Below, in pieces: positions 5,368 through 53,801 of a stretch of DNA of 64,000 nt; position 1 is the first letter of the stretch; the number at the start of each line of letters is the position of its first letter. The stretch is from Palaeococcus pacificus DY20341 (GTDB lineage Archaea > Methanobacteriota_B > Thermococci > Thermococcales > Thermococcaceae). The position numbers and the translations under genes were made by a program. The notes beneath the pieces were generated by a model, which did not search any database, was not told the DNA's origin, and worked only from the letters and a program-made list of their open reading frames with translations. The stretch spans positions 1,364,001 through 1,428,000 of the forward strand of contig NZ_CP006019.1 of assembly GCF_000725425.1 (NCBI RefSeq). Reading direction: 5' to 3'.

Positions 5368-6264
5368 ATGGAGTGGGAAGAACTCGGGACGTACCAACTC
5401 GAAAGCGCTCAAATATTTTTCCCAGCATCACTTGAGATACAAGAAGAGCTCCTCAAAGCAGGCTTTAAAGTTCCATATGACAAAGAAAAGAAGATTTCAA
5501 CTCCGCTCCCCGTGATATCGGCATTTTCAAAAGGTACTGTTATCCCCAAAAACAGGCTTTTAAAAGCTCATGAATTCGAAGAAGACGATAAGTTTGTGAA
5601 AATCCCAAATGAAGAGGCACATTTAAAGTTTTTAACCAATGAAAAAGGTTACCTGACGCTTGAAATTGAACTTAAACGCTACCACCTCGAAGATTTGAAC
5701 TTTGTATCAATTCCCCCAAGGATATGGAATGCATGGGTGAGCTTTTCGCTGAGTGCGGCCTTTTTGGACGATATTCTTGAAAGGCTAAGCAAACTTCGTG
5801 GAGAGACACCAAAAGGCATTTACATCGATTCGCGTGGCAGAAGTGGTAGAGAAATCGAAGTCTACGCTTACAAAGGCAGAAAGTATAAAGATTTAGGAAT
5901 TCCTGTATATGCCTACTATTTGGGCCTTAATGGGTTGGAGCTGGCAGGAGAGTATTTTGCTGAGAAGGCCGATGAAAGTAGCATCGATAGAGATGTCTTA
6001 AACTTCCTAAAGCTCGGATTGAAGAAAAGCAAGAGTACAAGAGCGGGCTTAAAAGTAGGGCTCATATGGAAGGAAGGGGAACCCCAAAGGATAGCACTAC
6101 GGCTCGGCACCAACTACCCGAGGGTTAAAATCCGCGGTCTGTACGGAGAACTGGAAGGAAAATCAAGAGGAGAGCTGAGCTACGGGGAGAGGCACTTCAT
6201 GACGGTCCGGGCCAATGACTTCTACTGGGCATTGGAAAAAGTTAAAAGTGTCTTTGGAGGCTAA
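5368..6264 (+). CDS. Unknown protein, 298 residues
   Basis: I do not recognise a named family. Start taken at ATG 5368, twelve codons inside the longest frame, with GGAG nine bases upstream and a TATA box at 5296-5307. The protein is soluble-looking with mixed alpha/beta content, no signal peptide, no membrane segment and no cysteine metal site. The N-terminal third is acidic and includes a proline-rich start of a domain (PLPVISAFSKGTVIPKN); the C-terminal part is basic (KKSKSTRAGLKVG, YPRVKIRG), which could suit nucleic-acid binding, though this is only a guess. It converges with the zinc-ribbon gene, the two stops overlapping by four bases. Confidence 0.7.
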   Translation: MEWEELGTYQLESAQIFFPASLEIQEELLKAGFKVPYDKEKKISTPLPVISAFSKGTVIPKNRLLKAHEFEEDDKFVKIPNEEAHLKFLTNEKGYLTLEIELKRYHLEDLNFVSIPPRIWNAWVSFSLSAAFLDDILERLSKLRGETPKGIYIDSRGRSGREIEVYAYKGRKYKDLGIPVYAYYLGLNGLELAGEYFAEKADESSIDRDVLNFLKLGLKKSKSTRAGLKVGLIWKEGEPQRIALRLGTNYPRVKIRGLYGELEGKSRGELSYGERHFMTVRANDFYWALEKVKSVFGG

Positions 6265-8794: not shown

Positions 8795-9339
8795 CACTCC
8801 TCACCTCCTAAATTTAAATATGGAACTACTTCATCATAAACCTCACTCCAGTCAACAATTCCAATTCTCTTCCGAATGCCCTTATTTAAAAGCTCTAAAA
8901 TTTCGTCCACAACTTCCGCTGGAGTTTTGCTTGTGGTGTCTACCTCTATGACGTTTTCGTGTTTTTCAATGGCCTCCACTAGGCACACATCCACAAGCTC
9001 AGCTTCGACGTTCTCACTAAGTTTCTGCTTCGAATAACCACGCTCTGAGAGCCTCTCCCCAACTATCTTTGGATGAGCTCTGAGGATTATAACTTGGTCA
9101 GCTGGAAGCAAATGACTTAAATGGCTGTCCAAAACGACATTTCTATCTTTGAGCTCTTCCTCGACAGCACGTGAGAGCTCGTCGATATCAAGTTCAAGCT
9201 CCTCTCCTACCTTTTCTCCCATGCCTCTGGCTATTGCAAAGTCCTTTATGTTTACATACTCATAGCCAAGCTTTTCAGCTAAAAGTTTACTTACCGTGGT
9301 TTTTCCCACGCCAGGGGTGCCGCTTACAGCTATTATCAT
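8794..9339 (-). CDS. AK6/Fap7-type adenylate kinase family protein
   Basis: 181 residues with a P-loop GTPGVGKT at 7-14 and a short kinase core (DSHLSHLLP as the NMP-binding part, RLSERGYS as the lid). This length and the [12 protein letters not shown] segment are typical of AK6/Fap7 proteins, which have adenylate kinase or ATPase activity and in archaea and eukaryotes assist small-subunit maturation by contacting ribosomal protein uS11. It is first in a two-gene unit with htpX, which starts at its stop codon. The ribosome function is known for the family and inferred here. Confidence 0.85.
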
Positions 9340-46578: not shown

Positions 46579-47460
46579 CTAAGACATGAGGCTTATTTCT
46601 TTGAGTATATTGGTTTCGATAGTTTCTTCATAGTCCAAGAGCTTTATCCTGATGTCTTTTTTTAGGACGGTCGTCTTTATATACAGCTTAACCCCAATAG
46701 TGCTCCTCTCTCCCTGCTTTATGTGCTGAGCCCATACCTTAGGTAGCAGCTCTGTATTGAGGATAGTTTTTACCTTCACTGTTTCACGCCCTTTAGCGGG
46801 TATCGTAACTCCTTCCAAAAGCTCTCCCTGAGCCACATTGTACTCATCGATATCTATAGAGTATTCTAAGCCTCTTACAGGTAGGGGGAAGCTGTTTGGA
46901 TTGTAGACTAAAATATCGCTGTAAATTGTAATATCTTCATCAACCTCGCCCCATCTAGAGTCAACTCTCTCTACTGCAGGTGTTTGAAGGATTACGGCAT
47001 TTTCGCTTTCGGTTTGGATGTTTAACGCTGAGAGTATGTCAGTTTCAACATTCTGAGTGAGCTCTTTTTTAAGAGAAATGCCAAAAAGAGAAGCTTCAAT
47101 AGTTATTTTAATCTCACTGTTCTCGTTGTTCTTTATATGGGCTTTAAGTGCTTCGACAGCCTTTTTATTATCAATCACTATTGGAATATCAATCGCATCA
47201 CTCATGAAGCCAAACTTCACATTGTCTACTCTCCCAAACTCCACTCCCGCAAGCTCTAATGTCGCTGATTTGATGTTTGCTAATATTGGAAGTTTGCTCC
47301 CTAAGCTCACATGAAGCCAAAGTTCGGTTGTATCTTCATCCACATAACCCCACTCTGCAGTCATTTGGGGATTTAAAATATGCACAGCGTATGCTAAATA
47401 GCTCCCCCACAAAATGAAAGCCAAAAATATGAGTGAAGTTAATTTTAGCACAGCCTTCAT
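46579..47460 (-). CDS. LEA14 / WHy-domain membrane-anchored protein
   Basis: 293 residues. An N-terminal anchor (about 5-27) is followed by two related halves: TAEWGYVDEDTTELWLHV... and DSRWGEVDEDITIYSDILVYNPNSFPLPVRGLEYSI. The second is a clear LEA-2/WHy domain (NPNSFPLPV is its signature); the first looks like a diverged copy. WHy domains bind lipids or hydrophobic ligands in some families and shield proteins under stress in others. It lies 70 bases downstream of the CARDB-repeat gene on the same strand and probably belongs to the RND operon. The stop is followed by A/T-rich sequence. Confidence 0.78.
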   Translation of the reverse strand: MKAVLKLTSLIFLAFILWGSYLAYAVHILNPQMTAEWGYVDEDTTELWLHVSLGSKLPILANIKSATLELAGVEFGRVDNVKFGFMSDAIDIPIVIDNKKAVEALKAHIKNNENSEIKITIEASLFGISLKKELTQNVETDILSALNIQTESENAVILQTPAVERVDSRWGEVDEDITIYSDILVYNPNSFPLPVRGLEYSIDIDEYNVAQGELLEGVTIPAKGRETVKVKTILNTELLPKVWAQHIKQGERSTIGVKLYIKTTVLKKDIRIKLLDYEETIETNILKEISLMS

Positions 47461-47530: not shown

Positions 47531-50251
47531 TCAAGCTCTTTTTCTCCTCAAGTACGTCACTATTACTGCCAAAAGAGCCAAAATTCCCACCACAGCACCC
47601 ATGGTTTTTAATTCCGTCTTCTGCTTTATGTTCTCTTCGATAGGCACCTTTATGCTGTCTTCGAATATGTAGACATTGTCATCGCCGCTTTCTTTATCTC
47701 CCACTGCCCTAATCCTAACTTGGATTGTATACTCCTTTGGAATTGCATCTCTATTTATACTGAGCTCCAGCACTCCCTCTCCATCTTTTCCTGGGTCAAG
47801 GGTTCCCACGTAGTCCGTCCTCTTCGTTAGTGTGAAAGGTTGGTTTGCTTTCACTACACCTTCAATTATAACATTCTCTGCTTGTTCTCCTCCAATGTTC
47901 TTGATTTTGATGTAAATCTTCACGTCCTCCCCTTGCAGGGGCTTCTTGTCGAACTTAATGCTCTCTACCTCAACTTTTGGCTTTTCATTGACTATTATGG
48001 GCACTTTCAACGTTATCTCTTGCTTCTCTCCAAGGGCATCTTTATAGCTAATCTTTACTGGGATCTCGTAGGTTCCTCCGCTTATGCTGTCTTTAACGTT
48101 CACTCTAAACACAGCTTTCGCTGAGTCTCCTTGGCTCAAAGTTCCAAGGTTAATCACCTGCTCGCTCGTTTCACTGAGCTCGAATGGGTCGTTTGGCTCA
48201 GGTTTAAGAAGCACATAGCGTGCACTCCCGCTTCCAATATTCTCCACTTCTAAGCTTATCTCAACGTTGTTTGTCCCCGCTAAAACACGGCTTGGTGATG
48301 TGGACACCTTCGAAATAATGAGTTCCTCCTTTCCGATGATCTCAACACCCACTAAACGCTCGTCGCTAACTTTTTCATCGTTTGGGGAGCTCAAATATGA
48401 TATGCCAAGCCTTACAGGGTAAACACCATTCTCAAGTTTCTCGTTTGCCTTAACGTGGAACTCCAAGGTCACCTCTTGGTTAGGTTGTATCTCACTCACA
48501 TACTTTGAGTTGTCTTCTCCTATTGGGAGGAAAGCTTCAACGTTCCTTTTAGCCAGCTCTTGAATTAATTGATTCAGAGCTGTTTGGAGGTTCTCACTTA
48601 TAGCCTGGCTTCCCTGGATTGGCAGGCTTTGTAGTGATGAGAGGTCAACGTTTTTAATCTCGCCTTGGACTTGCGTCTCATAGGGGAGGAGCTTGAGCTC
48701 AAAGCCCCTTGCGGTTTCTTCCCCAACGTTCTTAAGCGTGATCTTCAACGTAAAGTCATCTCCAGGCTCAATCTTCTTTGGTTCGACTTCAATTCTTTCA
48801 ATTTCTATGAAGGCCTTCCTGCTCTCAAGCACTTGGATAGAGAACTCAAAGCTTTGGCTTTTACCTTCCTTAGCATCGCCACTGTAGTATTCGAGCTTAA
48901 GCGTTAGAGGATAGCTGCCTGTCTTTGCATCTTCACTCACATGGAGCTTAAAGGTGTACTCCACTTCCCTGTTTGTACCTACGAGAGATGTATAATACTG
49001 GTCAGTTGCGTTGCCTATAAGTATGGGTGTTTCCAATTTTGGAGCCTTTAGTGTATCGGTAGATTCCAAACTTGGAGATGTCTCCAATTTTATAAGAAGA
49101 TTTTTTGCCTCTTCCATACCCACGTTCTTGAGCCTGACTTTAACTTCAAAGTCCTCGCCGGGATGGACTATCTTGGGCGTTTCAACATTTTCGAGTGCAA
49201 ATGTAGCGTCGCTTTCCCTCGCAACGGTTATTCCCACATAGTTGAAGCTCTGCATTTGCGTTAGGCTCTGTCCCATCCCCACTGAGTAAACAACGTTCAC
49301 ATAAAGAGGATAGGTTCCAGGAACGGCGTTCTCATTCAGCTTAAAGTGGAACTCCAAAACCTTCTCTTCCTTGCCCTCGAGATATTCCACATACTGTGTT
49401 GCGCTGTCAACAGGGAGGAAGACGCTTTGAACCACTCCGCTTTGGGAGAGTGCTTGAGCCAGAGCATTGCTTGAAGTTTCTTGGCTCCCCTCACTCATGG
49501 TTAGAGGCATCGGTGAAACGATAACATTAACATAGCGTGCTTTTAGGGCCCCTTCATTCTTTAGATAGACTTTAACAGTCACTTCCTCGCCAGGATTGAC
49601 GCTCTTAGGTGCTTCGACCCAGGTGGTAAGGTATGCAGGCATTGTAGATGCTTTCCACTCATAGGGGCCGCTTATGCTGAGCTTTGCACCATTGGGATAA
49701 ACCTGGAGGGCTGTTATGCTCACTTTATCCCCATCCACATCAAGCTCAATCGTTTGGTTTTCGCGTATGTAGTTATATTCAATTTGAACGTTCACTAAAT
49801 CCTCCTGTGTTAAGCCGAGTTCGGGATGGGCTTGGATGGTAGCGACTATTGCGTTGAACACTTCCTCCTCACTCGCGGTTTGGAGCCATCCATAAAATTG
49901 CGCTTGATCCAATGGGTCCGTCATATTGTAGCCCAATGTTTCACCCATCAAAGTTAAGAACGTTTGATTTTGCATCAAGCTTTGAATTAAAGCTGTGTTT
50001 GGATTAATTATAGGTGTAGCGACTTCATTTATGGGCTTGCCGTCCTTCAACACGACCACTAAGGCCTCATAAGTCCCGTTCAGGTAGTTCTTGTGAACGT
50101 CGGCAACCGTTATGACTAGTGGCCCCACAAGGAGAGATTCTCCTTTATCCAGGTAGCCCTCAAAGAGCACTGTTTCTTGAGCCAATGCGATGTTAAACAT
50201 ACTCGAAAGGAGAATTACCCCCATCAGCAAACTAAAAACTTTACTCCTCAT
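47531..50251 (-). CDS. Surface protein with CARDB-type repeats (COG1361-like)
   Basis: 906 residues. Signal peptide at the start (FSLLMGVILLSSMFNIALAQ), then an N-terminal domain, then about five immunoglobulin-like CARDB repeats, each opened by a pattern such as PKSVNPGEEVTV, PKIVHPGEDFEV, PKKIEPGDDFTL, PSRVLAGTNNVEI and KKPLQGEDVKI, and a C-terminal membrane anchor (VVGILALLAVIVTYLRRKRA). Such proteins sit outside the membrane, often beside RND exporters. Start at ATG 50251 after GGAGGTGGAGGAG; the gene overlaps the end of the RND gene by 11 bases, showing translational coupling. Ligand unknown. Confidence 0.86.
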   Translation of the reverse strand: MRSKVFSLLMGVILLSSMFNIALAQETVLFEGYLDKGESLLVGPLVITVADVHKNYLNGTYEALVVVLKDGKPINEVATPIINPNTALIQSLMQNQTFLTLMGETLGYNMTDPLDQAQFYGWLQTASEEEVFNAIVATIQAHPELGLTQEDLVNVQIEYNYIRENQTIELDVDGDKVSITALQVYPNGAKLSISGPYEWKASTMPAYLTTWVEAPKSVNPGEEVTVKVYLKNEGALKARYVNVIVSPMPLTMSEGSQETSSNALAQALSQSGVVQSVFLPVDSATQYVEYLEGKEEKVLEFHFKLNENAVPGTYPLYVNVVYSVGMGQSLTQMQSFNYVGITVARESDATFALENVETPKIVHPGEDFEVKVRLKNVGMEEAKNLLIKLETSPSLESTDTLKAPKLETPILIGNATDQYYTSLVGTNREVEYTFKLHVSEDAKTGSYPLTLKLEYYSGDAKEGKSQSFEFSIQVLESRKAFIEIERIEVEPKKIEPGDDFTLKITLKNVGEETARGFELKLLPYETQVQGEIKNVDLSSLQSLPIQGSQAISENLQTALNQLIQELAKRNVEAFLPIGEDNSKYVSEIQPNQEVTLEFHVKANEKLENGVYPVRLGISYLSSPNDEKVSDERLVGVEIIGKEELIISKVSTSPSRVLAGTNNVEISLEVENIGSGSARYVLLKPEPNDPFELSETSEQVINLGTLSQGDSAKAVFRVNVKDSISGGTYEIPVKISYKDALGEKQEITLKVPIIVNEKPKVEVESIKFDKKPLQGEDVKIYIKIKNIGGEQAENVIIEGVVKANQPFTLTKRTDYVGTLDPGKDGEGVLELSINRDAIPKEYTIQVRIRAVGDKESGDDNVYIFEDSIKVPIEENIKQKTELKTMGAVVGILALLAVIVTYLRRKRA

Positions 50252-52499
50252 CTCCTCCACCTCCAATTTGTTTTCCATACTTTAGCTGAAGCAGTGCAGG
50301 TGTGACAATAAAAGCGGCAAGCATTGACGCGAATATCCCTACCGCCAAGGTTTTGCCCAAGTCGTGGATTGGGGTTAACTCGCCAGCCAAGAGTGCTAAA
50401 AATCCACCAGCTGTTGTTAAAGCCCCCACCAATATTCCTGGACCCACACCTTGGACAGCCGTAATTATTGGGTGGGGATTTCCTTCTCCCATCTCCTCGA
50501 GGAAGCGATGAGTTAAGTGCATGCCGTAGTCCACTCCTAAGCCTACTATCATTGAGATAATCCCTGCAAGTGTTTGACTAAATGGAATCCCTGCTAATCC
50601 CATGTATCCAACCGTCCAAAAGGCGCCGAGAAGCATTGGTGTTATCATGGAAAGCGAAAGTGCAGGCTTTCTAAAGAGCAGGAGAACGATAAGGATGACA
50701 AAAAGAGTTCCGTACATAGAAATCCTACCGAGTTCACTGTTTGTCAGGCTATCCAAAACATAGTTTAAGTAAGACTCCCCAGCCACCCTCGCTTCAACAC
50801 CTGCCGGAAGATCAGCGTTTTGAACTTCCTCCTCAAAGTACCTCATTATTTCTCTAAATTGCTCCTGCCTAACTCCCATAAAGTTCCCTTTAAACTGCAC
50901 AATTGTCATTGAGTAGTCGTCATTTACCATTCCTTGGCCTTGATACTCCTCTAAAGCCTCCTTTATCTTTTCCTTGTCATCTGGAATGTACCCATACTTG
51001 TTGATTACAATATCAGCGATACTGTTCGATTCAAAGACGTTATTGTAGTAAGAGTCTGCTATAATTTGTTTTTCAAAGCGGTGGATGGCTCTGACTACGC
51101 TTGGATCCCTCACATCCTCAGCTGTGATGATCACATCAACCTCATCTTGACCACCAAATTCGTATCTAACATCTTTCATCACTTCAATCTCGGGAATTCC
51201 TTCAGGAATCATCTTTTCAAGCCTAACTTCAGTTGTGACCTGAGTTACCCCGTAAGCTGTTATTAAGCTTATGAGGAGTGCGACTCCTAAGAACTGCATT
51301 GGATGGTCCCTTACCGTTTTTCCAAGCTTATAGAACCCTTTCGCTATGAATCCCGAGTATGAACGAATCTCTGGAACCTCATAGTGCCCTTTTATCTTTT
51401 TCATTAAGTCTTCTTCAAGTATGATGACGGCGGGAGTTATCACCACTGCGTTTAGAGCCGCCAAGCCCAAACCCATTATTAGCGTAATACTAAGCCTCTG
51501 GAGTGATGGAAGTATTGAGAGGCTTAGTGCTGCAAACCCCGCTATTGTAGTTAAAGCAGCTCCAAGAAGGGCTTTACCCGTTTCCGCTATTGCCTCTTCT
51601 GCAGCTTCCTCGATGCTTTTCCCTTTCCGCCTCTCTTCGTAGTATCTATTGGTCACGTGAACGCCGTAGTCAATTCCCATTCCTATTAGCATAGCTCCAA
51701 CCGTTGTAGTTGCCATGTCGAGGGGAATGCCTAGAAGCCCCATAAATCCAAGGGTCATCGTAACTCCAAGAATTAATGGGATTAACGGAATCAGGGCTTT
51801 TATAGGAGAGCGGTAGAAGTAGAGCAACAAAATTCCTACTACAAAAAATGCGATTCCCATTGTTATGTTTAAATCGCTCTGGAGAAGCGCTAGAATTTTA
51901 TATGTTATCCCTACAGTGCCTGTTTGGACAGCTTCAACATTTTGGGGAAAATTAACGTTATCTATGTCCTTTTGGATTTCATCGTAAACCCTCATGAGTG
52001 CTTGAGAACTTTTTTCCCTTGTAAGTGAAGCTATTAGTATTGTTGTCCTGTAATCAGAGCTTATTAGGCCCTGTTTAGCTTCTTCTGGAAGCATATTCAA
52101 AACGAACTTTACCTCTCCATCATTTTTTGGCAGCCTTCCAAGGGCTTGAATGTAAATGTCGGCTATACTCATTGTATTCGTCACGTACTCATGTTGCTTT
52201 AACCGCTGCTCAAGTTCGTAGATTGATTGTATTACTGCAGGATCCCTGATATCGTAAACGCCACCTTTTTCTATGCTTTTGACTTTGACAATAATTATCG
52301 CTACGTCACCGCTTTGAAATTCATTTTGGAGTGTCTCGTAATCCTTAACTGCTTGTAAATCCTCAGGAAGCTGCTTTGATAAGTCGCTCTCAAATTTTAG
52401 CTGAGTAATGCCATATCCTGACAGTATAAGTAAGAAAATTGCAATAAGTACAAATGCCGCTCTGTATCTCACGATTATCTTCGAGGTCTTCCTGAGCAT
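50241..52499 (-). CDS. RND/MMPL-type membrane transporter (HAE3 group)
   Basis: 752 residues with the RND design of 12 membrane segments in two halves, each with a large outside loop after the first segment. Hallmarks are GIDYGVHVTNRYYEERRKG in the first half and GVDYGMHLTHRFLEE in the second, both carrying the proton-relay aspartate of the HAE3/MMPL type. HAE3 proteins move lipids, hopanoids or hydrophobic cargo across or out of the membrane. ATG 52499 follows GAGGTGAGAG. Upstream is a 24-bp perfect palindrome over the promoter, and downstream the CARDB protein gene is coupled. Cargo unknown; a lipid is plausible. Confidence 0.9.
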   Translation of the reverse strand: MLRKTSKIIVRYRAAFVLIAIFLLILSGYGITQLKFESDLSKQLPEDLQAVKDYETLQNEFQSGDVAIIIVKVKSIEKGGVYDIRDPAVIQSIYELEQRLKQHEYVTNTMSIADIYIQALGRLPKNDGEVKFVLNMLPEEAKQGLISSDYRTTILIASLTREKSSQALMRVYDEIQKDIDNVNFPQNVEAVQTGTVGITYKILALLQSDLNITMGIAFFVVGILLLYFYRSPIKALIPLIPLILGVTMTLGFMGLLGIPLDMATTTVGAMLIGMGIDYGVHVTNRYYEERRKGKSIEEAAEEAIAETGKALLGAALTTIAGFAALSLSILPSLQRLSITLIMGLGLAALNAVVITPAVIILEEDLMKKIKGHYEVPEIRSYSGFIAKGFYKLGKTVRDHPMQFLGVALLISLITAYGVTQVTTEVRLEKMIPEGIPEIEVMKDVRYEFGGQDEVDVIITAEDVRDPSVVRAIHRFEKQIIADSYYNNVFESNSIADIVINKYGYIPDDKEKIKEALEEYQGQGMVNDDYSMTIVQFKGNFMGVRQEQFREIMRYFEEEVQNADLPAGVEARVAGESYLNYVLDSLTNSELGRISMYGTLFVILIVLLLFRKPALSLSMITPMLLGAFWTVGYMGLAGIPFSQTLAGIISMIVGLGVDYGMHLTHRFLEEMGEGNPHPIITAVQGVGPGILVGALTTAGGFLALLAGELTPIHDLGKTLAVGIFASMLAAFIVTPALLQLKYGKQIGGGGDEE

Positions 52500-52512: not shown

Positions 52513-52536
52513 AACTTTCGGAAATTTCCGAAAGTT
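52513..52536. promoter_or_regulatory. 24-bp perfect palindrome, putative operator
   Basis: The left arm AACTTTCGGAAA is matched exactly by its reverse complement in the right arm with no spacer. On the minus strand it begins next to the TATA element CATATAAAAC (about 52535-52544) and covers the expected transcription start of the RND operon. On the plus strand it sits directly upstream of TTTTATATG, so it can also act on a rightward promoter. The obvious binder is the GbsR/MarR-type protein at 52717. Confidence 0.75.
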
Positions 52537-52586
52537 TTATATGTTATGAACCTTAAAAATCTTTTGGTCATGAGAGGTGAGATAGA

Positions 52587-52673
52587 ATGACATTCATCTC
52601 AACACCGGCAGACTTTGAGACTGCAGAGGTGTCATGTTTAGGAAGAATCCAAAATTTAGGGGCGAATTTTTAA
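52587..52673 (+). CDS. Possible small peptide, 28 residues
   Basis: ATG 52587 lies six bases after GGTGA, and a TATA element TTTTATATG at 52535-52543 would start transcription near 52566. The frame reads MTFISTPADFETAEVSCLGR... and stops at 52671-52673, 43 bases before the regulator gene. It has no membrane segment and one cysteine. It might be a real small protein, a leader peptide, or the start of a decayed gene. No family recognised. Confidence 0.35.
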   Translation: MTFISTPADFETAEVSCLGRIQNLGANF

Positions 52674-52716
52674 ATAAGAATACTGAAATACTTTATGGCA
52701 CTTTGATTGTGGCGGG

Positions 52717-53250
52717 GTGAATGAGTTGGGTGTTGAAGAAGCAAAGAAAATTATGATGGAGCACTTTGCAAATGCTGCGAGAAGATTTGGCTTAAATGAG
52801 CTTTACGGATACATTTATGGAGTTTTGTTCTTTGAAGACGAACCTCTAAGTTTGGGAGAGATAGCTGAAAGAACCGGTTATTCCCTATCGCACGTGAGCA
52901 CTGCTTTGAAGCTTCTCGAGAGCGTTGGGCTTGTTAAGAGGGTCAAAAAGCCGGGTGACAAGAAAGCCTACTATACAGCAATAAAGAACATTAGAGAGTG
53001 GAGAAGAGAAGCGTACTATAAGAGGCTCGAGGAGGATATAGAGCAGACTAAGATAAACCTAACGAGAGCTCTAAAAGAGATTGAAGGAGATGACAGCGAA
53101 GAGGCCAAGAGGATAAGGGAGAGAATTGAGTTTGCCCTTGAGAGGAATGCCATAGCCGAGAAAATAGTCAACATATTCTTAAAGAACGATGAAGATGAAG
53201 TCCTCAAGAAGATTCTCGAATGCGTTGAGAAGAAGATTAGAGAAGAATAG
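52717..53250 (+). CDS. GbsR/MarR-type winged-helix transcriptional regulator
   Basis: About 177 residues. The N-terminal helix (EHFANAARRFGLNELYGYIYGVLFFEDEPLSLGEIAER) and TGYSLSHVSTALKLLESVGLVKRVKKPGDKKAYYTAI winged helix match the GbsR branch of MarR-like repressors; a long helical tail (about 105-177) would mediate dimerisation. Divergent from the RND operon whose promoter carries a 24-bp palindrome, so it is the natural candidate repressor. Start is uncertain: GTG 52717, or TTG 52726 which lies five bases after GGTGA. Confidence 0.85.
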   Translation: MNELGVEEAKKIMMEHFANAARRFGLNELYGYIYGVLFFEDEPLSLGEIAERTGYSLSHVSTALKLLESVGLVKRVKKPGDKKAYYTAIKNIREWRREAYYKRLEEDIEQTKINLTRALKEIEGDDSEEAKRIRERIEFALERNAIAEKIVNIFLKNDEDEVLKKILECVEKKIREE

Positions 53251-53294: not shown

Positions 53295-53801
53295 ATGAAT
53301 CCCTGGCTTGAAGCACTTTGGTACATACTCCCAGCGTACTTTGCGAATTCTTCGCCAGTTGTTTTTAAAGGGCGGACTCCCATAGATTTTGGAAAGAATT
53401 TTATTGATAATAAAAGAATTTTAGGCGATGGAAAAACATGGCGGGGCTTTTTTGGCGGTTTAACTGTTGGTGTGCTCATATCACTGATTCAATACCACCT
53501 CATTCCCTCTTACTACGGTTCTCCTTATTTTGCTCTCAAGCTGGGATTTGCTCTCTCGTTTGGTGCTCTTCTTGGTGATTTGATAGGAAGCTTCATAAAG
53601 AGGAGAGCAAACTTTCCTCGGGGGTATCCTGCGATAGGATTAGATCAGTGGGGCTTTTTAATAGTCGCTATGATACTAGCGTATCCCATAAAAACGATAG
53701 AGACTAAGCAGGTTCTCTTTTTACTCGTTGTGACGCCTTTTGTCCACTGGTTAGCTAATGTTTTTGCATATAAAGTAGGATGGAAGAGTGTTCCTTGGTA
53801 A
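53295..53801 (+). CDS. carS: CDP-archaeol synthase
   Basis: 168 residues with four or five membrane segments. CarS transfers CMP from CTP to di-geranylgeranylglyceryl phosphate, an essential step in archaeal phospholipid synthesis. Seen are LPAYFANSSPVVFKG, FIDNKRILGDGKTWRG, GALLGDLIGSFIKRR and PAIGLDQWGF, all conserved in the family. ATG 53295 lies six bases after GGTGA. It follows the GbsR-type gene by 44 bases on the same strand, which may be fortuitous or link membrane-lipid status to the regulator. Confidence 0.94.
   Translation: MNPWLEALWYILPAYFANSSPVVFKGRTPIDFGKNFIDNKRILGDGKTWRGFFGGLTVGVLISLIQYHLIPSYYGSPYFALKLGFALSFGALLGDLIGSFIKRRANFPRGYPAIGLDQWGFLIVAMILAYPIKTIETKQVLFLLVVTPFVHWLANVFAYKVGWKSVPW

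Follow-up and report, generated by a model that had tools for sequence, protein, structure and literature searches.

The perfect 24-bp palindrome AACTTTCGGAAATTTCCGAAAGTT, at positions 52513-52536 of the window (the whole 64-kb stretch of Palaeococcus pacificus DY20341 analyzed here, from a genome of 1,859,370 bases in one contig), very probably serves the adjacent MarR/GbsR-type regulator as its operator, through which this protein would repress both the divergent MMPL exporter operon and its own gene; we infer the binding, its sign and the ligand.

A perfect palindrome that occurs once in the genome

The first-pass annotation had described the element as a 24-bp perfect palindrome unlikely to have arisen by chance, and both statements held. 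It is an exact inverted repeat of 12+12 bases with no spacer and no strand of its own, and perfect gapless palindromes with 12-base arms are expected, at the base composition of the window, 0.005 times per 64 kb and 0.14 times per genome. No other gapless palindrome of the window has arms exceeding 8 bases, the length reached by the next longest. At up to three mismatches the 24-bp element occurs once in the whole 1.86-Mb genome, where the reversed control at the same threshold gave 0 occurrences. A wider regulon was not visible: the 16-base core, at up to three mismatches, was found at 18 genomic places vs. 88 for the reversed control, and likewise none emerged in seven other genomes searched with the 16-base core at up to two mismatches.

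The family consensus of the palindrome is AACTTTCGGAAnnTTCCGAAAGTT, with two variable central positions and an 11-base half-site, AACTTTCGGAA. In the aligned loci, positions of the site carry 1.81 bits of information on average, compared to 0.27 and 0.64 in the flanks. Searching the literature with the core TTTCGGAAATTTCCGAAA returned no papers, and no published description of the palindrome site was found.

The genes flanking the palindrome

The gene to the right encodes a winged-helix regulator (52726-53250, + strand) whose Pfam assignment (MarR_2, 33.3 bits with a cutoff of 27; MarR, 32.7 bits with a cutoff of 24.6) agrees with the MarR/GbsR type first proposed for it. The start proposed at the same time, at the beginning of the listed open reading frame (52717-53250), is probably not the true one: translation is more likely to begin at TTG 52726 than at GTG 52717, as the orthologs begin there and just upstream lies GGTGAA, which fits the ribosome-site consensus GGDGRD (PMC4247193). 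Depending on the start, the protein is 174-177 amino acids long. The nearest solved structure by sequence is Mj223 (1ku9, E 7e-17), which also ranked first in a Foldseek search with the regulator model (E 1.5e-9, TM 0.56-0.63). This model predicts a helix-helix-wing order followed by long C-terminal helices, the putative dimerization part. Tested as a choline-type GbsR/CudC equivalog (NCBIfam NF047500), the protein reached 52.8 bits, below the cutoff of 218. Among orthologs 54-80% identical, the recognition helix YSLSHVSTALK is almost invariant, which fits an operator that does not change. In the window the regulator is followed by a CDP-archaeol synthase gene (53295-53801); this neighbor is found in most genera and not in Pyrococcus-like or pump-less loci, and a link to membrane lipids is possible.

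The leftward operon starts with the gene of an MMPL/RND exporter (50241-52499, - strand) carrying MMPL Pfam domains and belonging to the HAE3 subfamily (TIGR00921, 783 bits with a cutoff of 351.9), which suggests, by analogy, a hydrophobic or amphiphilic signal. The end of this gene is overlapped by the gene of a putative surface protein with CARDB/NEW3 repeats (47531-50278, - strand), likely a member of the same operon, to which the gene of an LEA2-domain protein (46579-47460, - strand) possibly belongs as well; both were assigned from domains and synteny.

Conservation of site and regulator in the Thermococcaceae

In a survey of 94 Thermococcaceae genomes, with the palindrome matched at up to three mismatches, a clear regulator ortholog was found in 60/94 genomes and the palindrome also in 60/94, while the reversed control pattern gave 0 matches. 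The two occur together in 59 genomes and are both missing from 33; the remaining two genomes are discordant and both are drafts, one 78% complete (G002) and the other with the regulator starting at a contig edge (G085). The Fisher p-value for this co-occurrence, 5e-23, ignores shared ancestry and is descriptive only. The first-pass annotation had held that absence of the palindrome beside the orthologs would speak against its proposal; instead, the site is present beside 59 of the 60 regulators and just upstream of the MMPL gene in each of the 54 genomes that have an MMPL ortholog (54/54). A phylum-wide search for the regulator in 115 genomes reproduced the count of 60 orthologs and gave one weak match outside the Thermococcaceae, and the system appears essentially restricted to this family within the genomes sampled.

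Five genomes (G017, G020, G023, G027 and G051; loci L052, L053, L055, L057 and L074) keep the regulator and the site in the absence of an MMPL ortholog, so that the pump accounts for only part of the picture. A contig of G035 also carries palindrome and regulator with no MMPL gene nearby. The operator of L039 (genome G003) is among the most divergent, with three mismatches. One TAA was reported inside the match to the regulator of this locus (5715-6224), whose frame is read without an early stop, and this TAA may be merely the gene end.

Two interlocked promoters

Two core promoters pointing away from each other, with TATA boxes about 16 bp apart, are predicted at the palindrome. For the rightward promoter, the right arm of the palindrome supplies the putative BRE (CGAAA, 52529-52533, + strand), which agrees with VRAAA, the BRE consensus given for Pyrococcus in PMC5937170, and the TATA box TTTATATG (52536-52543, + strand) abuts the palindrome, as already noted in the first-pass annotation; the resulting layout is CGAAA-GT-TTTATATG. 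The leftward promoter, which reads CAAAAGATTTTTAAG on the minus strand (52552-52566), comprises the TATA box TTTTTAAG (52552-52559, - strand) and a BRE predicted from sequence as part of the conserved leftward block (CAAAA, 52562-52566, - strand). The spacing between the leftward TATA box and the palindrome is fixed at 14-15 bp across loci. With about 23 bp between a TATA box and its transcription start (PMC4247193), leftward transcription is predicted to start at about 52529-52533, within the palindrome's right arm, and rightward transcription at about 52563-52567, over the leftward BRE. The earlier claim that the palindrome covers the start of the RND operon thus agrees with the start predicted from the conserved BRE and TATA box. 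Interleaved in this way, the two core promoters probably exclude each other.

Split loci as a natural dissection

In several genomes of the genus g4, the MMPL gene and the regulator are 2.5-4.7 kb apart, and these separated loci carry two palindromes, the first immediately ahead of the MMPL gene and the second ahead of the regulator side (L078, L081, L082 and L083; contig pairs L086/L087 and L088/L089). On the regulator tree they occupy two or more distinct positions interspersed with unsplit relatives, so that the splits are not all one event. Both promoter sets are kept at the divergent loci (46/46). Of the pump-only copies, 6/6 retain the leftward set and 0/6 the rightward one; of the regulator-side copies, 12/12 retain the rightward and 0/12 the leftward one. 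These counts exclude the L082 copy that is one base shorter and, with patterns picked after viewing the alignment and loci related by descent, make for strong rather than independent evidence. Since the promoter elements partition exactly as predicted, they support the reading of the palindrome as an operator shared by two sides; together with the co-occurrence and the duplicated sites, they speak for the original suggestion that one repressor could serve both.

The regulator-side palindrome of L082 (genome G077, 8894-8917) lacks one base at its center, which alters the spacing of the half-sites. Radical-SAM genes lie between pump and regulator in L078 (9020-10630), L082 (7261-8844) and L083 (6590-8173); in pump-less loci, e.g., L055 (3369-4976), they are next to the regulator. 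One radical-SAM type of these loci has a B12-binding domain. Their placement suggests recombination between two kinds of locus.

A stand-alone RAM gene next to the operator

In many relatives, the interval from the palindrome to the regulator holds a gene, oriented like that of the regulator, for a stand-alone Lrp/AsnC ligand-binding (RAM) protein of 74-78 amino acids. The RAM proteins match PF01037 with E-values of 7e-17 to 1e-8; four representatives of 74-77 amino acids scored 35.5-61.6 bits (cutoff 25) with no HTH match, and 2e1a and 2cvi are close solved relatives. All five loci of the MMPL-less genomes have the gene in intact form; in L067, L083, L088 and L090 it has decayed, and other loci lack it. 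In the window, the 180-base gap contains a probable C-terminal remnant of it (52656-52720, + strand), recognized by weak protein similarity: when compared with the RAM gene of L093, 3 of 500 shuffles reached its score, other RAM genes matched more weakly, and BLASTP of the putative remnant gave no match. The stop-to-start junction of the remnant with the regulator is identical to that of the intact relatives, and a decayed RAM gene is the probable reading of this segment. Decay of the RAM gene seems to be repeated, with operator and regulator staying intact.

RAM proteins of this stand-alone type are amino-acid binders whose role in the cell has been described as unclear (PMC2995911). We consider it a speculative and rather doubtful idea that the RAM protein could be the ligand sensor of the MarR/GbsR-type repressor, in a two-protein switch with sensor and DNA reader split between two polypeptides. 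If this were true, the repressor of lineages that lost the RAM gene, such as P. pacificus, would be rewired or constitutive.

Proposed mechanism and alternatives

In the mechanism that we propose, a ligand-free dimer of the regulator would bind the palindrome with one winged helix per 11-base half-site. It would cover the rightward BRE and so keep TFB from the regulator's own promoter; on the other side, it would cover the stretch where leftward transcription of the MMPL gene initiates and keep RNA polymerase out. The exporter operon would be repressed and the regulator autoregulated, until a ligand, probably hydrophobic, released the regulator from the operator.

The regulator might instead bind the site and activate one side, e.g., by recruiting TFB at the rightward promoter; TFB-RF1, another regulator of the Thermococcales, is an activator whose palindrome immediately precedes a weak BRE (PMC5937170). 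We judge this unlikely, since the rightward BRE fits the consensus and is inside the palindrome, and the palindrome is downstream of the leftward TATA box, positions that both fit obstruction. It is more improbable still that another DNA-binding protein uses the site and the neighboring regulator is a bystander: presence and absence of the site track the regulator almost perfectly, pump-less genomes included, and an essentially unique site suits a local regulator.

A function of the palindrome in RNA would draw on the fact that any perfect inverted repeat can fold and that part of this one would sit in the leftward leader. The site is conserved, however, where only the rightward promoter remains, whose transcript starts downstream of it, and for this reason we rejected a leader hairpin or terminator as the main role; in the divergent loci, moreover, no gene runs into the palindrome and there is nothing to terminate. 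The chance that this is what the palindrome does appears negligible. Against the preferred reading, that of a repressor operator shared by two promoters, stands the only report on TK0169, the likely ortholog of the regulator in T. kodakarensis, as one of 14 proteins that shifted a trp-promoter probe without specificity (PMC6737238). In the same locus, the RAM gene likely corresponds to TK0168, annotated as Lrp/AsnC (PMC8155482), and the neighbor TK0170 is endonuclease IV (PMC8061334).

Relation to known systems

In the MarR and MepR systems, the regulator and a divergent efflux pump adjoin and one palindrome is common to both promoters. Here, too, the regulator is beside an exporter with a single palindrome for both promoters, but these are archaeal BRE/TATA promoters, interleaved, and an operator arm doubles as BRE. 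Within the MarR family, the GbsR/Mj223 branch includes GbsR and OpuAR, repressors that respond to ligands and act on transport genes and related ones (PMC6207618); they share the winged-helix head and helical dimerization tail predicted by our regulator model, whereas the partner in the present case is an RND exporter and not osmoprotectant uptake. TFB-RF1 (PF1088) of Pyrococcus furiosus, with the motif TCTGAANTTCAGA (PMC5937170), is likewise a transport-related regulator of the Thermococcales whose palindrome adjoins a BRE; unlike the regulator proposed here, it is an activator and its site is upstream of the BRE, not around it. The TFB-RF1 pattern TCTG-N5-CAGA (PMC5937170) is absent from 52513-52536.

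Taken as a whole, the sequence evidence supports a local MarR-type operator common to divergent genes, which is of a familiar kind, with an unusually clear arrangement of archaeal promoters. A regulator with almost no functional data would thereby be assigned a predicted operator and target, and the family would offer a compact archaeal model in which one site serves two interlocked BRE/TATA promoters, with naturally occurring loci that have lost one or the other of them. T. kodakarensis, in which the counterpart is likely TK0168-TK0169, is amenable to genetics.
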